From: a virus
Length of the DNA stretch: 23,238 bases
Strand: one strand, 5' to 3'
Virus record (IMG/VR): IMGVR_UViG_3300044301_000545
Location: 1 to 23,238 of that record
Shown: one piece after another, positions 11,341 to 18,103 of the stretch
How the letters are laid out: every line of letters begins with the position of its first letter
How positions within the stretch are numbered: position 1 is the first letter of the stretch
Position numbers and translations under genes: made by a program
Notes under the pieces: model-generated
Databases searched by the model: none
What the model was told of the DNA's origin: nothing
What the model saw: the letters and a program-made list of their open reading frames with translations, nothing else

Positions 11341-11615
11341 CAATTACTACCGTTGTTTATGCGTTGTGCATCTATATAAAGTTTATTAAAATCCATTGCT
11401 GTAGAATCAAGCTGTAGCTGGATCAGTTTAAATAAGCTATCCACTTCAAATGCGTTTCTTGTTACCTCTGCATTTAATTCATCTCTGGTTTTCCCAAAGT
11501 AAAATTCATCTGCACAACTAATAGCTGTAAAGACAAAAGCAAGAGTAAATGCAATGATTACCAGCACATTGACCGCTTTGTCAAAGTTTGCAAATTGGCT
11601 TAATTTTTTACGCAT
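11340..11615 (-). CDS. Membrane-anchored helical protein, possible i-spanin-like (91 aa)
   Basis: A short basic start (MRKKLSQFANFDKA) precedes one hydrophobic segment (VNVLVIIAFTLAFVFTAISC), then a charged helical region (RDELNAEVTRNAFEVDSLFK). This N-in, C-out layout with a periplasmic helix suits an i-spanin. Cys follows AIS, a poor lipobox. Its ATG lies within the last codons of the fibre gene (8-base overlap), so it may be co-translated with it. Role uncertain. Confidence 0.68.
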   Translation of the reverse strand: MRKKLSQFANFDKAVNVLVIIAFTLAFVFTAISCADEFYFGKTRDELNAEVTRNAFEVDSLFKLIQLQLDSTAMDFNKLYIDAQRINNGSN

Positions 11616-14600
11616 TTTCTAAAGCTTCTACTTTTGCTGATAGTTCTTGAACTGCTTTAATTAGTGGTGCTATTAAGTCATTATAATTAAGACCATATTC
11701 TCCATCTTTATCGCCAAATACAGAATCTTTAAGTTTTCCATCTTTTAAATCTTGGGCTATTAGTCCATAATGTTTTTTATTATAATCATCATGTGTTTCT
11801 TCAAGATTTTTTATATTATAAGATTTTGGCTTTAATGTATTAACAAAGTCAATACCTAAATCACAATCTTTTATATTTTCTTTCTTTGTTTCATCTGATA
11901 CAACAACAGAATTTGCTGTATATAAAACTGATACTTGCCTTGCACTGCTTCCAATGTTGTAAGTATTATCAGCTTCAGGAATAATACTACCAGCTGCTGG
12001 AATATTCCATCTCGCTGTAGCAGCTGAAGTTCCGCTATTAGTTTTGAAAACAATTCTGCCTGGCATATCGTTACCACCTGGAGTTCCATCTACCTCAACA
12101 TCTATACTTGCAGCTACTGTATTAATATCAGTACCATCAGCACCACAAAAGAACAAAGCACCAAGCCTATCACCATCGGCAGCAACAGTAGACGAACCAT
12201 CTGAAGTACCTCTACTTCTTCCAAAAAATATTATTGGTGCAGCTCCAGATGATGTTCCTGTATTCCCCACTAATGACATTGAAGAAGTATCGTAAGATGT
12301 TCCTTCAACTTGGAATTGTGAACTAACTCCTGACATTTCTCTTATAGCTCCACTTCCTACTAAAACTCTGCCATCAGATTTAAATGTAGTTGATTGTGAG
12401 CCATTAGTATATACTCTTAAATCACCGCCATGTCCACTTGAAGAAATACCTGTATCAGCACCTGCTAAGGCTGTTCCTGTAAAATATATTCCACCTGTTG
12501 ATTTTACAACACTATCAGATTCAAGTGTAAGGTGTTCAGTCATTGTTCCTGCCTTCATTGTTCTAAAAGTTATAGAACCATCTTCAGTTGTATCACTATT
12601 ATCTACGATGTTTGCCCTTATATCTGCATAGGTTGTTGCTTCTGAGGCACTATTATTAGCAACGAAAGCTGTGGTGTGTATTAACTGACCATCTGTGCTT
12701 CTATCACTATAGAATTGTGCATAAGTATCATCTCCAGTTGGAGCATCTACTTTAAACTGTCCAGTAATTTTTGTTTGTGCGCTTGTAACCTCTATTCTTT
12801 CAGCTCCACCAGTTGCAAATCTTAATGTATTAGCAGTTCCTCTGTACATTCCTGTATCTGTATCTGAGTTAAATGAATAGGTTGGTGTACTTGCTGAACC
12901 TGCTGAATCATTAATTGCGAATTTTCCTTCACCATAATGGTATATATCTCCTGTGCCACCTGAAGAACCAAATTGAACATCGCCATTTGCTTTAATTCTA
13001 AGTCTTTCAATTAAACTGCCAGAAGGTGCTGTTCTGAATACAAATTCCCCATCATCTTTGTTTGTTGTATCTGAACCACTAACAATTAGCATATCACCTA
13101 CTGAAGTCCCATTCCATTTACCAACTATTCCCATAATTGTAGAATCAGCACTACTTCTATTAGCATCACCATCAATTTGAGAACCAGAATTTCCTGTATT
13201 TTTCATTAACATTGTTGTTGATGTAGCTGACTCTAAATGTAGTTGATTTGACGGATCGTTCGTACCAATACCAGTACGACCTCCTCCTTTTACTGAAAAT
13301 AAATCATTTGCATCTTTGTCTTGTACTCTTAATGAATAATCTGCATTATCAGCACCACCTTTGACAAACGCTCCCCAGCCTGTTGCTGATGTATTAGTAA
13401 ACGATCCTATATATGCACTACCTGTTGAACCTGAAACAGTCAATGTACTTGCCATATCTACAGCACCATCAATATCTACTACATCTAAGTTAGCTGTACC
13501 ATCTACATCTATATCGCCAGAAATATCCAAAGACGTTGCTTCAATCTCACCACTTGCTTTCATCGTTACGCCATCACCACCAGCAACTCTAAATATTATT
13601 TCATCATCTGTACTAAATTTGATTTGATTGTCTGCATCTCTACCAGCTACTAAACTTGCGTTCAATATTGATGTTAATCCAGTTTGTGAAGCATCTACTG
13701 CAAAATCTATATTGTCGTTTGTTGTATCATAAGTAACAGTAATTCCACTTTCAGTATTACTGCTGACCATATTTGTTCCGACTGTATCTCTAATATATGT
13801 GGCTAACGCTACGCTTTCTACTGTTATTGCATCAGCTTCTAAAGTTCCATCTACATCTACATTACCAGATATATCAAGCGATCCAAAAGCACCAACACCA
13901 GTTGTTGTTATATTGCTTGAGCCAGTATCTATTGTGCCAAATCCGCTTGTAATACTTCCTGAATTTAATGCTCCAGTTGTAACAATATTTGAGCCACCAA
14001 CATTATGACTTGCGAAATATGTAGAAACTGTATCTACATTTGTCATTCGCATTGTACCGCCATCGTTGATTAAAATACCATCTCCAGATGCTACAGCAGT
14101 TGTGCCTCTAGCTGTTCCCCCATCAATTAAATTTATTTCTTCTGGAGTTGCTGAGATTGCAGTTGTTGTAGCTGCTGCCAAGACTGGAATATATCCGCCT
14201 TGATTGATTAAATATTGCGTATGATCAGAAGTAGGATCTACTATGCTCAAAGTTGTTTCGCTTGAATCGGCAGTTGCCCCTTCAAATACAATCGCATTTT
14301 GAGCATTCATTGTTACCGTATCTACTGTAGTTGTAGTTCCAGCTACGCTTAAATTTGGTACTCTTAAAGTTTCGGTGCTTGGATTATAATAAAGTGAACC
14401 AGTATCGTCTAATAAAGCATTTGATTCATCATTAAAGACTACAGGGAAATTTGTATTTGCTGTGCTATTAGTAACCGTAACCGTAGTTGCTAAAGTTGCC
14501 GTATCAGCATTACCAGTTACCGCACCAGTAATTGGTCCAGCAAAAGCATCTGCTGTAACCGTTCCATCAAAGAAAGCATCTTTAAATTCATTATCAGACT

Positions 14601-16218
14601 TACCAAGATCAATTATGTTATCTGAACCTGGATATAAAGCACCATCTTCAAGGATTAATTGTTTTTCATTCCCTGCGTAAAAATTAATTTTATCAGCATC
14701 TTCAAAATCTATTTTAGTCTGATCATCTTCACCGATCTTAATATCAGTTGCTAGTAGTGAAGTGATCCCTGTTTGTGCTGCATCTACTGAAAGATCAACG
14801 GTGTTATCACTATCTTGGAATGTTACCGTTATTCCGCTTTCGGTATTGCTAGAGAACATTCCTCCAGCTTGGTCTGTAATATATTCAGCTAATGTCGTTC
14901 CATCAACGGTGATTGCATCGGCTTCTAATGTGCCGTCTATATCCGCATCTCCAGAGATGTCTAAACTTGTGGCATCTACTTCACCCGCTACTGTTACAAC
15001 ACCGCTAGTAAGGGTGATTAGATCCGTATCTCCTGTATGGCCTATTGTCGTTCCGTCAATAGCTATATTATCAACTGTTAATGCCGTAAGTGTTCCCAGG
15101 CTTGTAACATTTCCCTGGGCTGCTGTGTTTAATGTTCCAGCAAAAAGTGTAGAAGTCAAAAGACCGCTAGAGGGATTGTATGTTAATCCTGTATCTGATT
15201 CAGCACCTTGCGAGCCTGTCGCTCCATCAACAAAGATTGGATAAACCGTTTCATCAGAGGAATTATTAGCGGAAACCGTAATGTTATCTGCTGTACCAGT
15301 TGTATCTTGATTAAGTGTGCCAATTACAAAGTCTAAAGTATTATCACTATCTTCGTATGTAACTGTGATGTTGGTTTCTGTATTAGAGCCTACCATCGCT
15401 CCGACAGTATCGGCTATGTATTCATTTAAAGCCGTACCATCCACCGTATAAGCATCGGCTTCCATTGTTCCGTCAATATCAGCATTACCGCTAATATCTA
15501 ATGAGGCAAAAGTTCCTACGCCTGTCGTGGTTATATTTTCATCTCCGAAGCTTATTGTGCCTGAGGAATCGGTTATTGAGCCGTTGGCAATCGTTACATT
15601 TCCGATAGTAGAACCTGATACCTGGCTTGAAGTCTGAGCAAAGGTTACTCCGCCACCGTCAGCGATGGTCATGGCTAAATCACCATCGGTGTAGTCTATT
15701 GTTGCTGTTTCGATTGATCCTGCGACATTAAAATCACCGCTAGAATCGATAGCTGCTAATGTGCTGGAGGCATCTTTAAATGATATGTCTCCGCCATCTG
15801 CGTTAAATTCTATATCCCCTGCTACATCTACGGTTAAATTACCGCTTGCGACATCGATTTCAGTCGCATCTGAAAAATAGAGGTCTCCCTCTAGGTATAA
15901 ATCTTGCCAAGCATAGCTAGACGAACCAATATCATAGGTGTCATCTGCTGCTGGAATTAAGTTTGAATCGATTGATCCTGTGATAGTAACCGTATCACCA
16001 GAAGCATCTCCTAGATCTACGTTGCCAGTAAGTGATACATTTGCTGCTGTAACCGTTCCTGTAGCGGTAATGTGCCGAAATCCTGTAATATCTTTATTAG
16101 AATCGACAACGACAGCTTTACTAGCTGCAACCGTTCCTGCGGTCACATCGCTTGAATTTGCTCTGGATACTGCGCTGTCAATCTGAGCGCCAGTATAATC
16201 TGAATTGTAATTAGCCAT
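11608..16218 (-). CDS. Tail fibre with C-terminal S74 intramolecular chaperone (1536 aa)
   Basis: Probably the receptor-binding fibre. Residues 1 to about 900 are built of degenerate repeats with motifs such as SLDISGNADIDGT, EADAITVDGT and SNTESGITVT, typical of beta-helical fibres. From about 1441 the sequence SDETKKENIKDCDLG begins a Peptidase_S74 / endosialidase chaperone domain, with the Ser-Lys pair (S1441, K1446) expected to cut the chaperone off after trimerisation. The conserved YGLIAQDLKDG and final coiled coil (AVQELSAKVEALENA) are also present. A strong AGGGGA ribosome site precedes the ATG. The gene lies between the capsid and lysis genes rather than after the tape measure. Confidence 0.92.
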   Translation of the reverse strand: MANYNSDYTGAQIDSAVSRANSSDVTAGTVAASKAVVVDSNKDITGFRHITATGTVTAANVSLTGNVDLGDASGDTVTITGSIDSNLIPAADDTYDIGSSSYAWQDLYLEGDLYFSDATEIDVASGNLTVDVAGDIEFNADGGDISFKDASSTLAAIDSSGDFNVAGSIETATIDYTDGDLAMTIADGGGVTFAQTSSQVSGSTIGNVTIANGSITDSSGTISFGDENITTTGVGTFASLDISGNADIDGTMEADAYTVDGTALNEYIADTVGAMVGSNTETNITVTYEDSDNTLDFVIGTLNQDTTGTADNITVSANNSSDETVYPIFVDGATGSQGAESDTGLTYNPSSGLLTSTLFAGTLNTAAQGNVTSLGTLTALTVDNIAIDGTTIGHTGDTDLITLTSGVVTVAGEVDATSLDISGDADIDGTLEADAITVDGTTLAEYITDQAGGMFSSNTESGITVTFQDSDNTVDLSVDAAQTGITSLLATDIKIGEDDQTKIDFEDADKINFYAGNEKQLILEDGALYPGSDNIIDLGKSDNEFKDAFFDGTVTADAFAGPITGAVTGNADTATLATTVTVTNSTANTNFPVVFNDESNALLDDTGSLYYNPSTETLRVPNLSVAGTTTTVDTVTMNAQNAIVFEGATADSSETTLSIVDPTSDHTQYLINQGGYIPVLAAATTTAISATPEEINLIDGGTARGTTAVASGDGILINDGGTMRMTNVDTVSTYFASHNVGGSNIVTTGALNSGSITSGFGTIDTGSSNITTTGVGAFGSLDISGNVDVDGTLEADAITVESVALATYIRDTVGTNMVSSNTESGITVTYDTTNDNIDFAVDASQTGLTSILNASLVAGRDADNQIKFSTDDEIIFRVAGGDGVTMKASGEIEATSLDISGDIDVDGTANLDVVDIDGAVDMASTLTVSGSTGSAYIGSFTNTSATGWGAFVKGGADNADYSLRVQDKDANDLFSVKGGGRTGIGTNDPSNQLHLESATSTTMLMKNTGNSGSQIDGDANRSSADSTIMGIVGKWNGTSVGDMLIVSGSDTTNKDDGEFVFRTAPSGSLIERLRIKANGDVQFGSSGGTGDIYHYGEGKFAINDSAGSASTPTYSFNSDTDTGMYRGTANTLRFATGGAERIEVTSAQTKITGQFKVDAPTGDDTYAQFYSDRSTDGQLIHTTAFVANNSASEATTYADIRANIVDNSDTTEDGSITFRTMKAGTMTEHLTLESDSVVKSTGGIYFTGTALAGADTGISSSGHGGDLRVYTNGSQSTTFKSDGRVLVGSGAIREMSGVSSQFQVEGTSYDTSSMSLVGNTGTSSGAAPIIFFGRSRGTSDGSSTVAADGDRLGALFFCGADGTDINTVAASIDVEVDGTPGGNDMPGRIVFKTNSGTSAATARWNIPAAGSIIPEADNTYNIGSSARQVSVLYTANSVVVSDETKKENIKDCDLGIDFVNTLKPKSYNIKNLEETHDDYNKKHYGLIAQDLKDGKLKDSVFGDKDGEYGLNYNDLIAPLIKAVQELSAKVEALENA
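13675..13890 (-). repeat. Fibre repeat unit, copy 3
   Basis: One of three related segments of about 200 bases within the fibre gene. Each encodes, in order, a Q-T-G/L-type lead, a D..D..NIDF-like strand, SNTESGITVTY-like sequence, a YI.DT-type strand and LEADAIT, ending in a LDISG.VD motif. The copies have diverged at DNA level, so they come from old duplications. Confidence 0.7.
14765..14965 (-). repeat. Fibre repeat unit, copy 2
   Basis: Same module as the unit at 13675-13890. It encodes SNTESGITVTFQDSDNTVDL, then AEYITDQAGGM and LDISGDADIDGTLEADAITV (listed here in non-collinear order). The near identity of the protein motifs to the other copies, with many silent base changes, shows selection on the protein. 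Confidence 0.7.
15325..15510 (-). repeat. Fibre repeat unit, copy 1
   Basis: The copy nearest the N-terminus. It encodes SLDISGNADIDGTMEADAYT, then LNEYIADTVGAM and SNTETNITVTYEDSDNTLDF. Shorter pieces of the same module (SLDISGDIDVDGT) recur near 13485-13535. Confidence 0.7.
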
Positions 16219-16266: not shown

Positions 16267-16482
16267 TTAAATCTTTTGACCGTTAGCCATGCGCTTGCAG
16301 TCAGATTGAGCCTTAAACTCTTTTCCTGGCCAGCCGTTCCCTTTAAGTTTGAATAAAGGCCCACTCATAAGTTTTTTTAAATTCGTGTTACCACATTCAC
16401 AAGTAGCAGTCTCATCTACTTTAGTCATTATCTCAAATGTGTCTTCGCATTTACTGCATTCATAATCGAAAGTTCTAAACAT
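16267..16482 (-). CDS. FmdB-type zinc-ribbon protein (71 aa)
   Basis: The start at 16482 overlaps the previous stop (TGATG) and gives MFRTFDYECSKCEDTFEIM, the usual FmdB opening with a C-x-x-C pair at residues 9 and 12. A second pair (C28, C30) in TCECGNTNLKKLMSGP completes the zinc site. An ATG two codons upstream (16488) is less likely. FmdB-like proteins are annotated as putative regulators, and similar ones occur in marine phages; their role there is unknown. The C-terminus is basic and may bind nucleic acid. Confidence 0.85.
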   Translation of the reverse strand: MFRTFDYECSKCEDTFEIMTKVDETATCECGNTNLKKLMSGPLFKLKGNGWPGKEFKAQSDCKRMANGQKI

Positions 16483-16754
16483 CACCATTTAACCTTTGCA
16501 GCCCAATATGCTGCGCTCATCTTGCCTTTAGCTATATTCTTGCGATGTCTAGCTAAAAATGATTTACGTCTAGCTCTTTGTGCTTTTGATCTTGGATTCT
16601 TACCAGCACCACGCACCCCCTGTTGACCAAAGCGAATCAATTTTACTTTAGATCCTGACTTTGCTAAAACTGCGTGACTTTTTGTTTTGTGTTTTGGTGT
16701 TCTTTTTGGCTTATTGTAACCAGAAAAACGCACACCTCTATAATTTATGGCCAT
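16482..16754 (-). CDS. Small very basic protein, DUF6321-like (90 aa)
   Basis: Very rich in Lys and Arg, with the segments VKLIRFGQQGVRGAGKNPRS, RARRKSFLARHRKNIAKGKM and SAAYWAAKVKW. I recognise this pattern from small proteins of marine phages (DUF6321 type). Its function is not established; the charge suggests nucleic-acid binding. The ATG directly follows the previous TAA, and its stop overlaps the FmdB-type gene, so the three small genes form a coupled unit. Confidence 0.82.
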   Translation of the reverse strand: MAINYRGVRFSGYNKPKRTPKHKTKSHAVLAKSGSKVKLIRFGQQGVRGAGKNPRSKAQRARRKSFLARHRKNIAKGKMSAAYWAAKVKW

Positions 16755-16934
16755 TTATCTACCGACAAGCCTTTGTGCGGTTCTATGACTTTGTGTAAAA
16801 GTTCTACCTTTACGCATCTCAGTAGCCATTTTTGATAAATGCCTTTTAGTGTGATGCGTTTTGTGCCTTTGCATTTGGCTTTTTTGTCTTGATGTTAAGC
16901 CTTTTAGATTTATGCCTTTTAGATTTGTAGCCAT
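16755..16934 (-). CDS. Small basic protein (59 aa)
   Basis: The frame begins MATNLKGINLKGLTSRQKSQ and continues MQRHKTHHTKRHLSKMATEM, ending FTQSHRTAQRLVGR. It is rich in His, Lys and Arg. Comparable short proteins with an HHTK.H segment and a FTQ(S/A)H...A...VG ending occur in marine phages, by recollection; function unknown. An AGGG lies about ten bases before the ATG. It is the first gene after the capsid terminator. Confidence 0.75.
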   Translation of the reverse strand: MATNLKGINLKGLTSRQKSQMQRHKTHHTKRHLSKMATEMRKGRTFTQSHRTAQRLVGR

Positions 16935-16954: not shown

Positions 16955-16988
16955 AAAAAAAGGAATGGGGGCTAATAAAAGCCCCCAT
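16955..16988 (-). terminator. Strong rho-independent terminator after the MCP gene
   Basis: On the minus strand ATGGGGGC (16988-16981) pairs perfectly with GCCCCCAT (16972-16965) around an eight-base loop, followed by TCC and seven T. It starts 18 bases after the MCP stop and probably insulates high capsid expression from downstream genes, or lets a fraction read through. Confidence 0.92.
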
Positions 16989-17005: not shown

Positions 17006-18103
17006 TTAAGGATTCTTGAACTCTTGGATTCTACCCTCAAAAACTGTAACTGCTCCGTAAAGCATATCGCAAACGACTTTAGTTCCTAAGAAGTCCACGC
17101 TGTATTCAGCTTGTACTCTTGGTTCTAGTTGTCGAGCTGCTGAAACGGCAGATGGATGAAAAATGTATCCAACTTCCACTCCAGTAGACGTTGATGCTCC
17201 CATTACTGTAGAATGGAGAACAGGCATACCGTAAAGCATACCGATTTGACCATTCTTCAATCCAGAAGGACCTGCGCCCATCTTAGAAGCATCTACGAAG
17301 TCGCTGATTCCAAGCATTGCAGTATACAATGCAGGAGAAACAACAAAATTACACTCATTCGTGTCTACATCAGCTTCCATCAAAGTCTTCATTCCGCCTC
17401 TGATTTCTGCTGCTGTGATTGTGTTGTCGCCAGCTAAAGCTGTACTGTTTGTAGTTGCTGCTTCAACTTTAGATTCGATATACGCATCATAAGTCTTAGC
17501 AAGCGCGTACGCCATTCCAGATACTTCTTTTTCAAAAAGACCTGGGATTGCTTGTACAGATGCTATGTCTTCAACGAGTTTTGCAGCGTAACGATGCTGG
17601 TCGATCGTAAGATCGGCCTTTGCGTGCGTTCCTGCTGCGTAAGTTACGAGTGTTTCTGCTGCTTTAGCGGCATCACTTACCTCTGTTAATTTAGGGATAT
17701 GATATGTATCACCTTTGTTACCCTTAACAAGACCGTTTAAAGATGTGTCTACACATTGTTCGAACACAAGATTGCGTTCCATATATGCTTTGACTCCATC
17801 AGTCCAAATTTCAGGTATAAAATTCAGTTGTTATCGTAGTGGCTTTTTATCCTCTACTTCTTTAGGTTTCCCTAAAGTTCGGCATATCTTTTCAACTTTC
17901 GTTGTCGAGGCCTCTTGGATACATTATATCTTTTCAGTATCTATGCTCTGCCCCTGACTGATCTTAGACCAGCCTTCGGTTCTGATTAGCTTATCTTACG
18001 ACTTAGCCTTCCAGCTTAATTCCTCGATTTAACGCTGCCAATTTTATCTAGCAGCGGTGGTAGTGGTAACCGATGCGCCAGAAAAATTTTCTGATAATGC
18101 CAT
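17006..18103 (-). CDS. Major capsid protein, gene split by a group I intron (290 aa after splicing)
   Basis: The coding sequence is the join of 18103..18050 (exon 1, 18 codons) and 17824..17006 (exon 2). Exon 1 reads MALSENFSGASVTTTTAA, and exon 2 opens NFIPEIWTDGVKAYMERNLV. Spliced together they give an N-terminus typical of this HK97-fold capsid type (a Thr-rich arm, then NFIPEIW), followed by KGNKGDTYHIPKLTEV and a C-terminal EYSVDFLGTKVVCDMLYG. The gene follows the scaffold gene, the normal place. Without splicing, translation stops at TAA (18046-18044) after 19 codons. A start at the internal ATG 17782 would lose 32 conserved residues and has no ribosome site. Confidence 0.93.
17825..18049 (-). 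ncRNA. Group I self-splicing intron in the MCP gene (225 nt)
   Basis: Helices seen on the coding strand: P1, exon CGCUGCU (18056-18050) with GGCAGCG (18039-18033), ending in the required U-G pair at the 5' splice site. P10, exon-2 AAUUUUAU (17824-17817) with AUAAAAUU (18047-18040), 8 bp. P3, UCGAGG (18027-18022) with CCUCGA (17910-17905). P6, GGCUGGUC (17974-17967) with GAUCAGUC (17963-17956). P7, GCAUA (17946-17942) with UAUGC (17886-17882). P7.1, GAUAC (17941-17937) with GUAUC (17922-17918). P8, CAAC-GAAA-GUUG (17904-17893). P9, CUUUAGG-GAAA-CCUAAAG (17877-17860). P9.1 at 17857-17836. The last intron base is G. P4/P5 are weak: tentatively CUG/CAG and GGCU/AGCU. P7.1 hints at subgroup IA. 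No endonuclease ORF. Confidence 0.92.

Follow-up and report, generated by a model that had tools for sequence, protein, structure and literature searches.

Phage T4 encloses small basic proteins, among them its internal proteins and those of the prohead core, together with its DNA. In eukaryotic viruses, Tlr6f is conserved in nearly all polinton-like viruses (PLV) and many Megavirales, and also occurs in some phages; its function is given as not known by Yutin et al. 2015 (PMC4642659). DUF5754 is the same domain as Tlr6F, according to PMC12220804. For phage ICP1, cleavage of the scaffold has been reported (PMC10945586), and the passages on proteases in that article do not treat the capsid protease gp125.

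Here, we describe three small genes that follow the major capsid gene in a 23,238-nt stretch of viral DNA ("the window"; IMG/VR record IMGVR_UViG_3300044301_000545). All three genes encode new representatives of already known families. From its sequence, we identify the middle protein, of 90 aa, as a free-standing version of a domain fused, in different orders, to the XkdF-type prohead protease in other phages.

Organization of the locus

The features of the region are listed in Table 1. The initial annotation had described three coupled genes at 16267-16934, and all three open reading frames (ORFs) were found there on the minus strand, abutting or overlapping. The stop codon TAA of the 59-aa gene is followed by the ATG of the 90-aa gene with zero gap, and the junction between the 90-aa gene and the zinc-ribbon gene reads TGATG, with one shared base, when the 71-aa start is used. 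The first ATG of the zinc-ribbon gene gives 73 aa and the second, at 16482, gives 71 aa; in one relative (L104), the ORF starts exactly at the 71-aa start.

Table 1. Positions of the trio and of adjoining features in the window.
Feature	Position	Strand	Basis
59-aa basic three-helix protein (phrog_31838)	16755..16934	-	phrog_31838 match, AlphaFold2, relatives
90-aa basic protein, free form of XkdF-fused domain, distant DUF5754/Tlr6F homologue (assigned from sequence)	16482..16754	-	phrog_7595/phrog_9979, fusions, hhalign, AlphaFold2
FmdB-family zinc ribbon, 73 aa (or 71 aa from 16482)	16267..16488	-	TIGR02605, PF09723, CxxC...CxC
Intrinsic-terminator-like hairpin, between capsid gene and trio	16965..16988	-	hairpin search
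Major capsid gene, main part (context)	17006..17782	-	phrog_267 major head protein, E 5.5e-34

The placement of the trio behind a capsid terminator was borne out by the hairpin, which has nine pairs, six of them G-C, and is followed by TCCTTTTTTT. Four terminator-like sites occur in the region, compared to 2.0 +/- 1.3 in shuffled sequences, and this hairpin has the longest stem. Promoter-like sites in the region were not above chance (four found, 6.4 expected). Two of the proteins had been called very basic, as the calculated charges confirm: the 59-aa protein has a pI of 12 and a net charge of about +14, and the 90-aa protein has a pI of 12 and a net charge of about +27, with 27 lysines and arginines and no acidic residues. 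The zinc ribbon is mildly basic (+1.5, pI 8.3).

The view of the trio as a single three-protein unit was not supported by the comparison with other phages. Hundreds of phages carry the 90-aa gene, in most cases without the 59-aa and zinc-ribbon genes. A 59-aa gene is followed by a 90-aa gene in 18 of the 35 cases with room for one, and the complete order, with the FmdB gene after both, is kept in 13 of 95 loci with the 90-aa gene, the window included. Directly behind the trio (11608-16218, minus strand) lies a gene for a 1536-aa acidic, repetitive, fibre-like protein, with a C-terminus that, by eye, resembles the S74 intramolecular chaperone.

The major capsid gene itself is broken by a 225-nt non-coding insert on the minus strand (17825-18049), which separates exon 1 (18103-18050, MALSENFSGASVTTTTAA) from exon 2, starting at 17824. 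Five relatives (L090, L088, L086, L002 and L093) have an uninterrupted capsid gene of 290 aa, and another (L083) carries the same insert. No Rfam family matched at the gathering threshold; in a restricted search, the insert matched the group I intron with 24.5 bits (E 0.00035), short of the gathering score of 50. The last base of exon 1 is T and that of the insert is G, as expected for group I, and the insert thus looks like a group I-like intron. When the structural half of the window was searched as DNA against phage records, the sole match was of 38 bp (97.4%, about 17824-17861) to Staphylococcus phages ROSA, IME1365_01 and Rosita. Because this match falls at the 3' end of the insert, these phages may carry a related intron.

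The 59-aa protein and the zinc ribbon

The 59-aa protein matches phrog_31838 (E 1.5e-6, residues 13-58 to 3-50 of 51), and relatives 68-100% identical are encoded by 32 viral contigs. Its AlphaFold2 model (pLDDT 93.3) consists of three helices, at residues 15-27, 30-41 and 46-56. A sequence search of the PDB gave no matches, Foldseek of the model against the PDB gave nothing at E <= 0.001, and the best VIA-align match (9qh4_C, Z 4.5, rmsd 2.6, 57 aligned) was uninformative. A relation to ChaB, considered by eye, was not established. In three loci (L105, L106 and L107), three other small basic ORFs precede the 59-aa gene, which is directly followed by a gene that looks ParB-like by eye.

The four-cysteine zinc ribbon seen in the initial annotation was recovered by NCBIfam TIGR02605 (E 4.6e-12), with 45.8 bits over a cut-off of 31.3; against PF09723 (Zn_ribbon_8) it scored 30.8 bits, below the cut-off of 34.4. 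All 15 FmdB-like ORFs aligned from the set of loci, window included, keep the four cysteines at the ribbon positions. In the window ribbon and its near relatives, the knuckles are CxxC followed by CxC, and CxxC occurs twice in two other ORFs (L016 and L099). A PDB sequence search with the ribbon gave nothing significant (best 8fjg_A, E 0.16). Judged by these matches, the protein is an ordinary FmdB and a predicted zinc binder.

The 90-aa protein and its relation to DUF5754

Over its whole length, the 90-aa protein aligns with phrog_7595 (E 9.9e-38, residues 3-90 to 7-96 of 96), and it also matches phrog_9979 (E 2.5e-7). More than 599 viral contigs encode relatives, and the best 80 of them were analyzed as the free form; at E 0.01, relatives were found in 153 phage records, including SIO1, HMO-2011, KBS-S-2A, P12053L and ICP1. 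The hosts of the carriers are cyanobacteria, Roseobacter, Vibrio, Aeromonas and Puniceispirillum. Among prokaryote genomes, 57 loci were found, which by title are metagenome bins, single-cell or uncultured assemblies, and the plasmid search gave none. In a Rhodobacteraceae bin (L249, 4731-5249), the domain sits behind an unrelated N-terminal part of 85 aa in a 173-aa ORF. A protein of Roseobacter phage CRP-901 (L122, 3992-4249), deposited as an HVA1 family protein, is the free domain by our 90-aa profile (E 1.4e-6) and has no Pfam matches; the deposited name looks wrong.

The AlphaFold2 model of the 90-aa protein (pLDDT 81.9) has two pairs of strands followed by three helices. Nothing significant was found in the PDB by sequence (best 7zhs_A, E 1.6), by profile (best 9euf_M, a baseplate component, E 0.29) or by Foldseek at E <= 0.001, and the best VIA-align match was uninformative (2mfk, Z 2.5, rmsd 3.5, 54 aligned). 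The search of a viral structure library gave four matches at E <= 0.001; XkdF (E 2.9e-3) and a ChaB protein (E 8.7e-3) were matched with a probability of 1.00, and Tunisvirus V9SE36 weakly (E 0.26, probability 0.72). Weak Pfam matches below the cut-off, to Protoglobin, Phage_tail_tube_init and DUF6321 (PF19846, 12.3 versus 28.5), were dropped.

The relation to DUF5754 came through jumbo phages. The 86-aa homologue in jumbo phage NCTB matches PF19058 (DUF5754) with 43.8 bits over 27.4, and together with three contig relatives forms a set in which all four proteins match. In hhalign, the window family was aligned to these four jumbo-phage proteins with 98.2% probability (E 4.8e-14). Thirteen of 24 relatives of the 90-aa protein match PF19058 weakly (best E 0.0038), and no match to the window protein itself was seen up to E 10. 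Because this direct match is absent, we describe the window protein as a homologue of DUF5754, and not as a member.

Fusion to the prohead protease

A tblastn search with the 90-aa protein hit the C-terminal end of the ICP1 capsid protease, the N-terminal part of which is PF14550 (Peptidase_S78_2/XkdF; 37.9 bits over 24). The protease comes first in ICP1, and the domain comes first in Aeromonas phage PhAER-3 and Roseobacter phage CRP-6. A search with the CRP-6 protein matched more than 599 viral contigs, and the best 80 of these were kept; domain profiles built solely from free small ORFs were then applied to them. The 90-aa domain was present in 79 of the 80 proteins, as follows from a query that holds both parts. 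An N-terminal DUF5824 module was present in 40 of the same best 80, which does not follow from the query, since CRP-6 lacks DUF5824. Among eight fused proteins chosen for Pfam analysis, PF14550 was found in all eight, DUF5824 in four and Hva1_TUDOR in two, and in five a sub-threshold DUF5754 match fell on the fused domain itself. Profile-profile comparison of the free and fused domains gave 96.9% probability (E 1.5e-10), with a median net charge of +19 for the free and +10 for the fused domain. We found no description of this fusion in the literature searched, and as far as that literature shows, the link of the phrog_7595 domain to the prohead protease is new.

The modules of the fused proteins also occur on their own. 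Small basic ORFs encoding DUF5824, Hva1_TUDOR, DUF6496 and several proteins without a Pfam name abut the 90-aa gene, often with overlaps of one or four bases, and DUF5824 and Hva1 are thus both free neighbors and protease modules. Of 80 loci, 51 have a member of one or more of ten such families on the same strand no more than 400 nt away, and none has one on the other strand; this figure is descriptive and not a test, because the ten families were picked from the same loci.

Genomic neighborhood

Head-region genes were identified for cluster representatives with PHROGs. Of 80 loci, 47 have a portal, MuF, scaffold, capsid, terminase or adaptor gene on the same strand as the 90-aa gene and no more than 3 kb from it (portal in 25, MuF in 17, scaffold in 16, capsid in 15, terminase in 12 and adaptors in 15), and 33 have no recognized head gene within 3 kb. 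In the window, PHROGs confirmed TerL and the capsid protein, and four other head-region proteins had no match. In KBS-S-2A, the 90-aa gene directly precedes a 225-aa gene and the coat gene, and it has the same place in MED4-184; in ICP1, this place is held by the protease followed by the scaffold. Some copies adjoin lysis or other genes, such as a cytidyltransferase gene in HTVC008M and a MmcB-like gene in NCTB.

PF14550 was not found in the window or in the 90-aa protein. Of 35 records searched, 33 lacked it; the exceptions were ICP1, with the fused form, and L006, which has a free copy plus a separate XkdF protein. With ICP1 left out, 33 of the 34 free-form records lacked it, which says little because most of the records are fragments. 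Other protease families were likewise absent from records many of which are fragments: PF04586 from all 20 searched, and PF01343 and PF00574 from all six, the window and its 35-kb relative L083 among them. Conversely, 17 records with a fused copy had a single copy of the domain in 15 cases and none at threshold in two. These counts are compatible with, but do not prove, use of the domain either free or fused and not both.

Conservation of the 90-aa protein

The capsid proteins of 26 loci that carry both genes form 325 pairs, of which 208 had no BLASTP hit (E 1e-3), while the 90-aa proteins in these comparisons had a median identity of 73.5% and a minimum of 60.6%, a level that is partly built in, because the loci were chosen by 90-aa similarity (best 80 of more than 599). 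Over 81 loci, 2761 of 3240 pairs shared no other similar gene of at least 130 aa. Four-fold degenerate sites agreed at chance level in pairs of 65-75% amino acid identity (0.301 versus 0.294, and 0.319 versus 0.311 expected), and recent exchange is therefore not the cause of the identity. Old horizontal exchange could also yield conserved 90-aa proteins beside unrelated capsids. The pattern points to strong purifying selection on the free copies. Because identity holds despite saturated synonymous sites and unrelated capsids, the partner of the protein is probably invariant, and would most simply be nucleic acid; a conserved host factor is a possible alternative.

Discussion

As the stand-alone form of a protease-fused domain, the 90-aa protein may be expected to work inside the phage head during assembly. 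The earlier proposal that the set is linked to the head or to packaged DNA gains ground from the in-frame fusions and from the head-gene neighbors in more than half of the loci. Building on homology, fusions, neighborhood and selection, we infer an interior location, DNA binding and a role for the protein as a late, nucleic-acid-binding module supplied in trans to the prohead interior, a reading to which we give an even chance. In other phages, the same module, fused to the prohead protease, would help to position the protease within the head as it assembles. In the window lineage, it may act on its own, since no prohead-protease family was found there. The free module would enter the prohead along with the scaffold, remain there or be retained by its charge, and coat the DNA or seat it as it comes in. 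The 59-aa three-helix protein would be the cassette's second basic protein, with a task of the same sort, and the FmdB zinc ribbon, co-encoded in the window lineage only, need not be part of the mechanism.

The same neighborhoods would also suit packaging or genome-ejection factors that bind the DNA end, the terminase or the portal and are not parts of the prohead core. The 59-aa gene lies just before a small-terminase-like and a 405-aa terminase-like gene, named by eye, in four loci (L095, L098, L101 and L103), and TerL and portal genes are among the neighbors counted above (12 and 25 of 80 loci). At the protein level, however, the 90-aa domain is linked to the prohead protease and not to terminase or portal, and we consider such factors rather unlikely. 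The fusions with PF14550 in both orders could instead mean that the domain works with or regulates the maturation protease, for example as a pro-domain or substrate adaptor, with free copies being substrates or relics without DNA contact. This is quite improbable in view of the strong purifying selection that the free copies appear to be under, and of the absence of PF14550 from all but one free-form record and of PF04586, PF01343 and PF00574 from every record searched.

Host takeover, by action on the host nucleoid, transcription or translation, would fit small basic proteins with an invariant partner, and PHROGs annotates the FmdB family (phrog_1076) as a transcriptional regulator. Yet the genes sit in late and not early regions, among structural genes, the domain is fused to a prohead protease, and the hosts of the carriers are so diverse that a host partner would need to be equally conserved. 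We regard this explanation as very unlikely, and for the action on host transcription suggested in the initial annotation no supporting evidence was found.

More broadly, the prohead-interior module may belong to a cassette that amounts to a multi-domain prohead protease taken apart, with the Tlr6F-like, DUF5824 and Hva1-type domains as general DNA-contacting modules of the head interior, either XkdF-fused or free neighbors; we advance this only tentatively, as possible but on balance doubtful. If true, the Tlr6F of phages, polinton-like viruses and giant viruses would be a module of virion assembly shared by capsids of very different kinds. The analysis offers a candidate role for a small protein family that is among the most widespread in marine phages. 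The protease fusion of the phage homologue is, as far as we searched, the first functional lead for Tlr6F/DUF5754, a domain common to phages and eukaryotic viruses, and can be tested in cultured phages.

Among known systems, the comparison with the T4 internal proteins and prohead core is one of how the proteins would work, with no sequence relation claimed and no targeting sequence known here. The window protein of 71 or 73 aa is, like FmdB (TIGR02605, phrog_1076), encoded by a zinc-ribbon gene, with CxC as the second knuckle where FmdB has CxxC. The 90-aa protein matches phrog_7595 over its full length, and to that family, which has no assigned function, the present analysis adds the protease link. 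Residues 183-261 of ICP1 gp125 (phrog_9979) are the same domain, preceded in ICP1 by the PF14550 protease, which the window protein lacks. With DUF5754/Tlr6F (PF19058) of polinton-like viruses, virophages, giant viruses and some phages, the window protein shares its domain layout, but it is far more basic.
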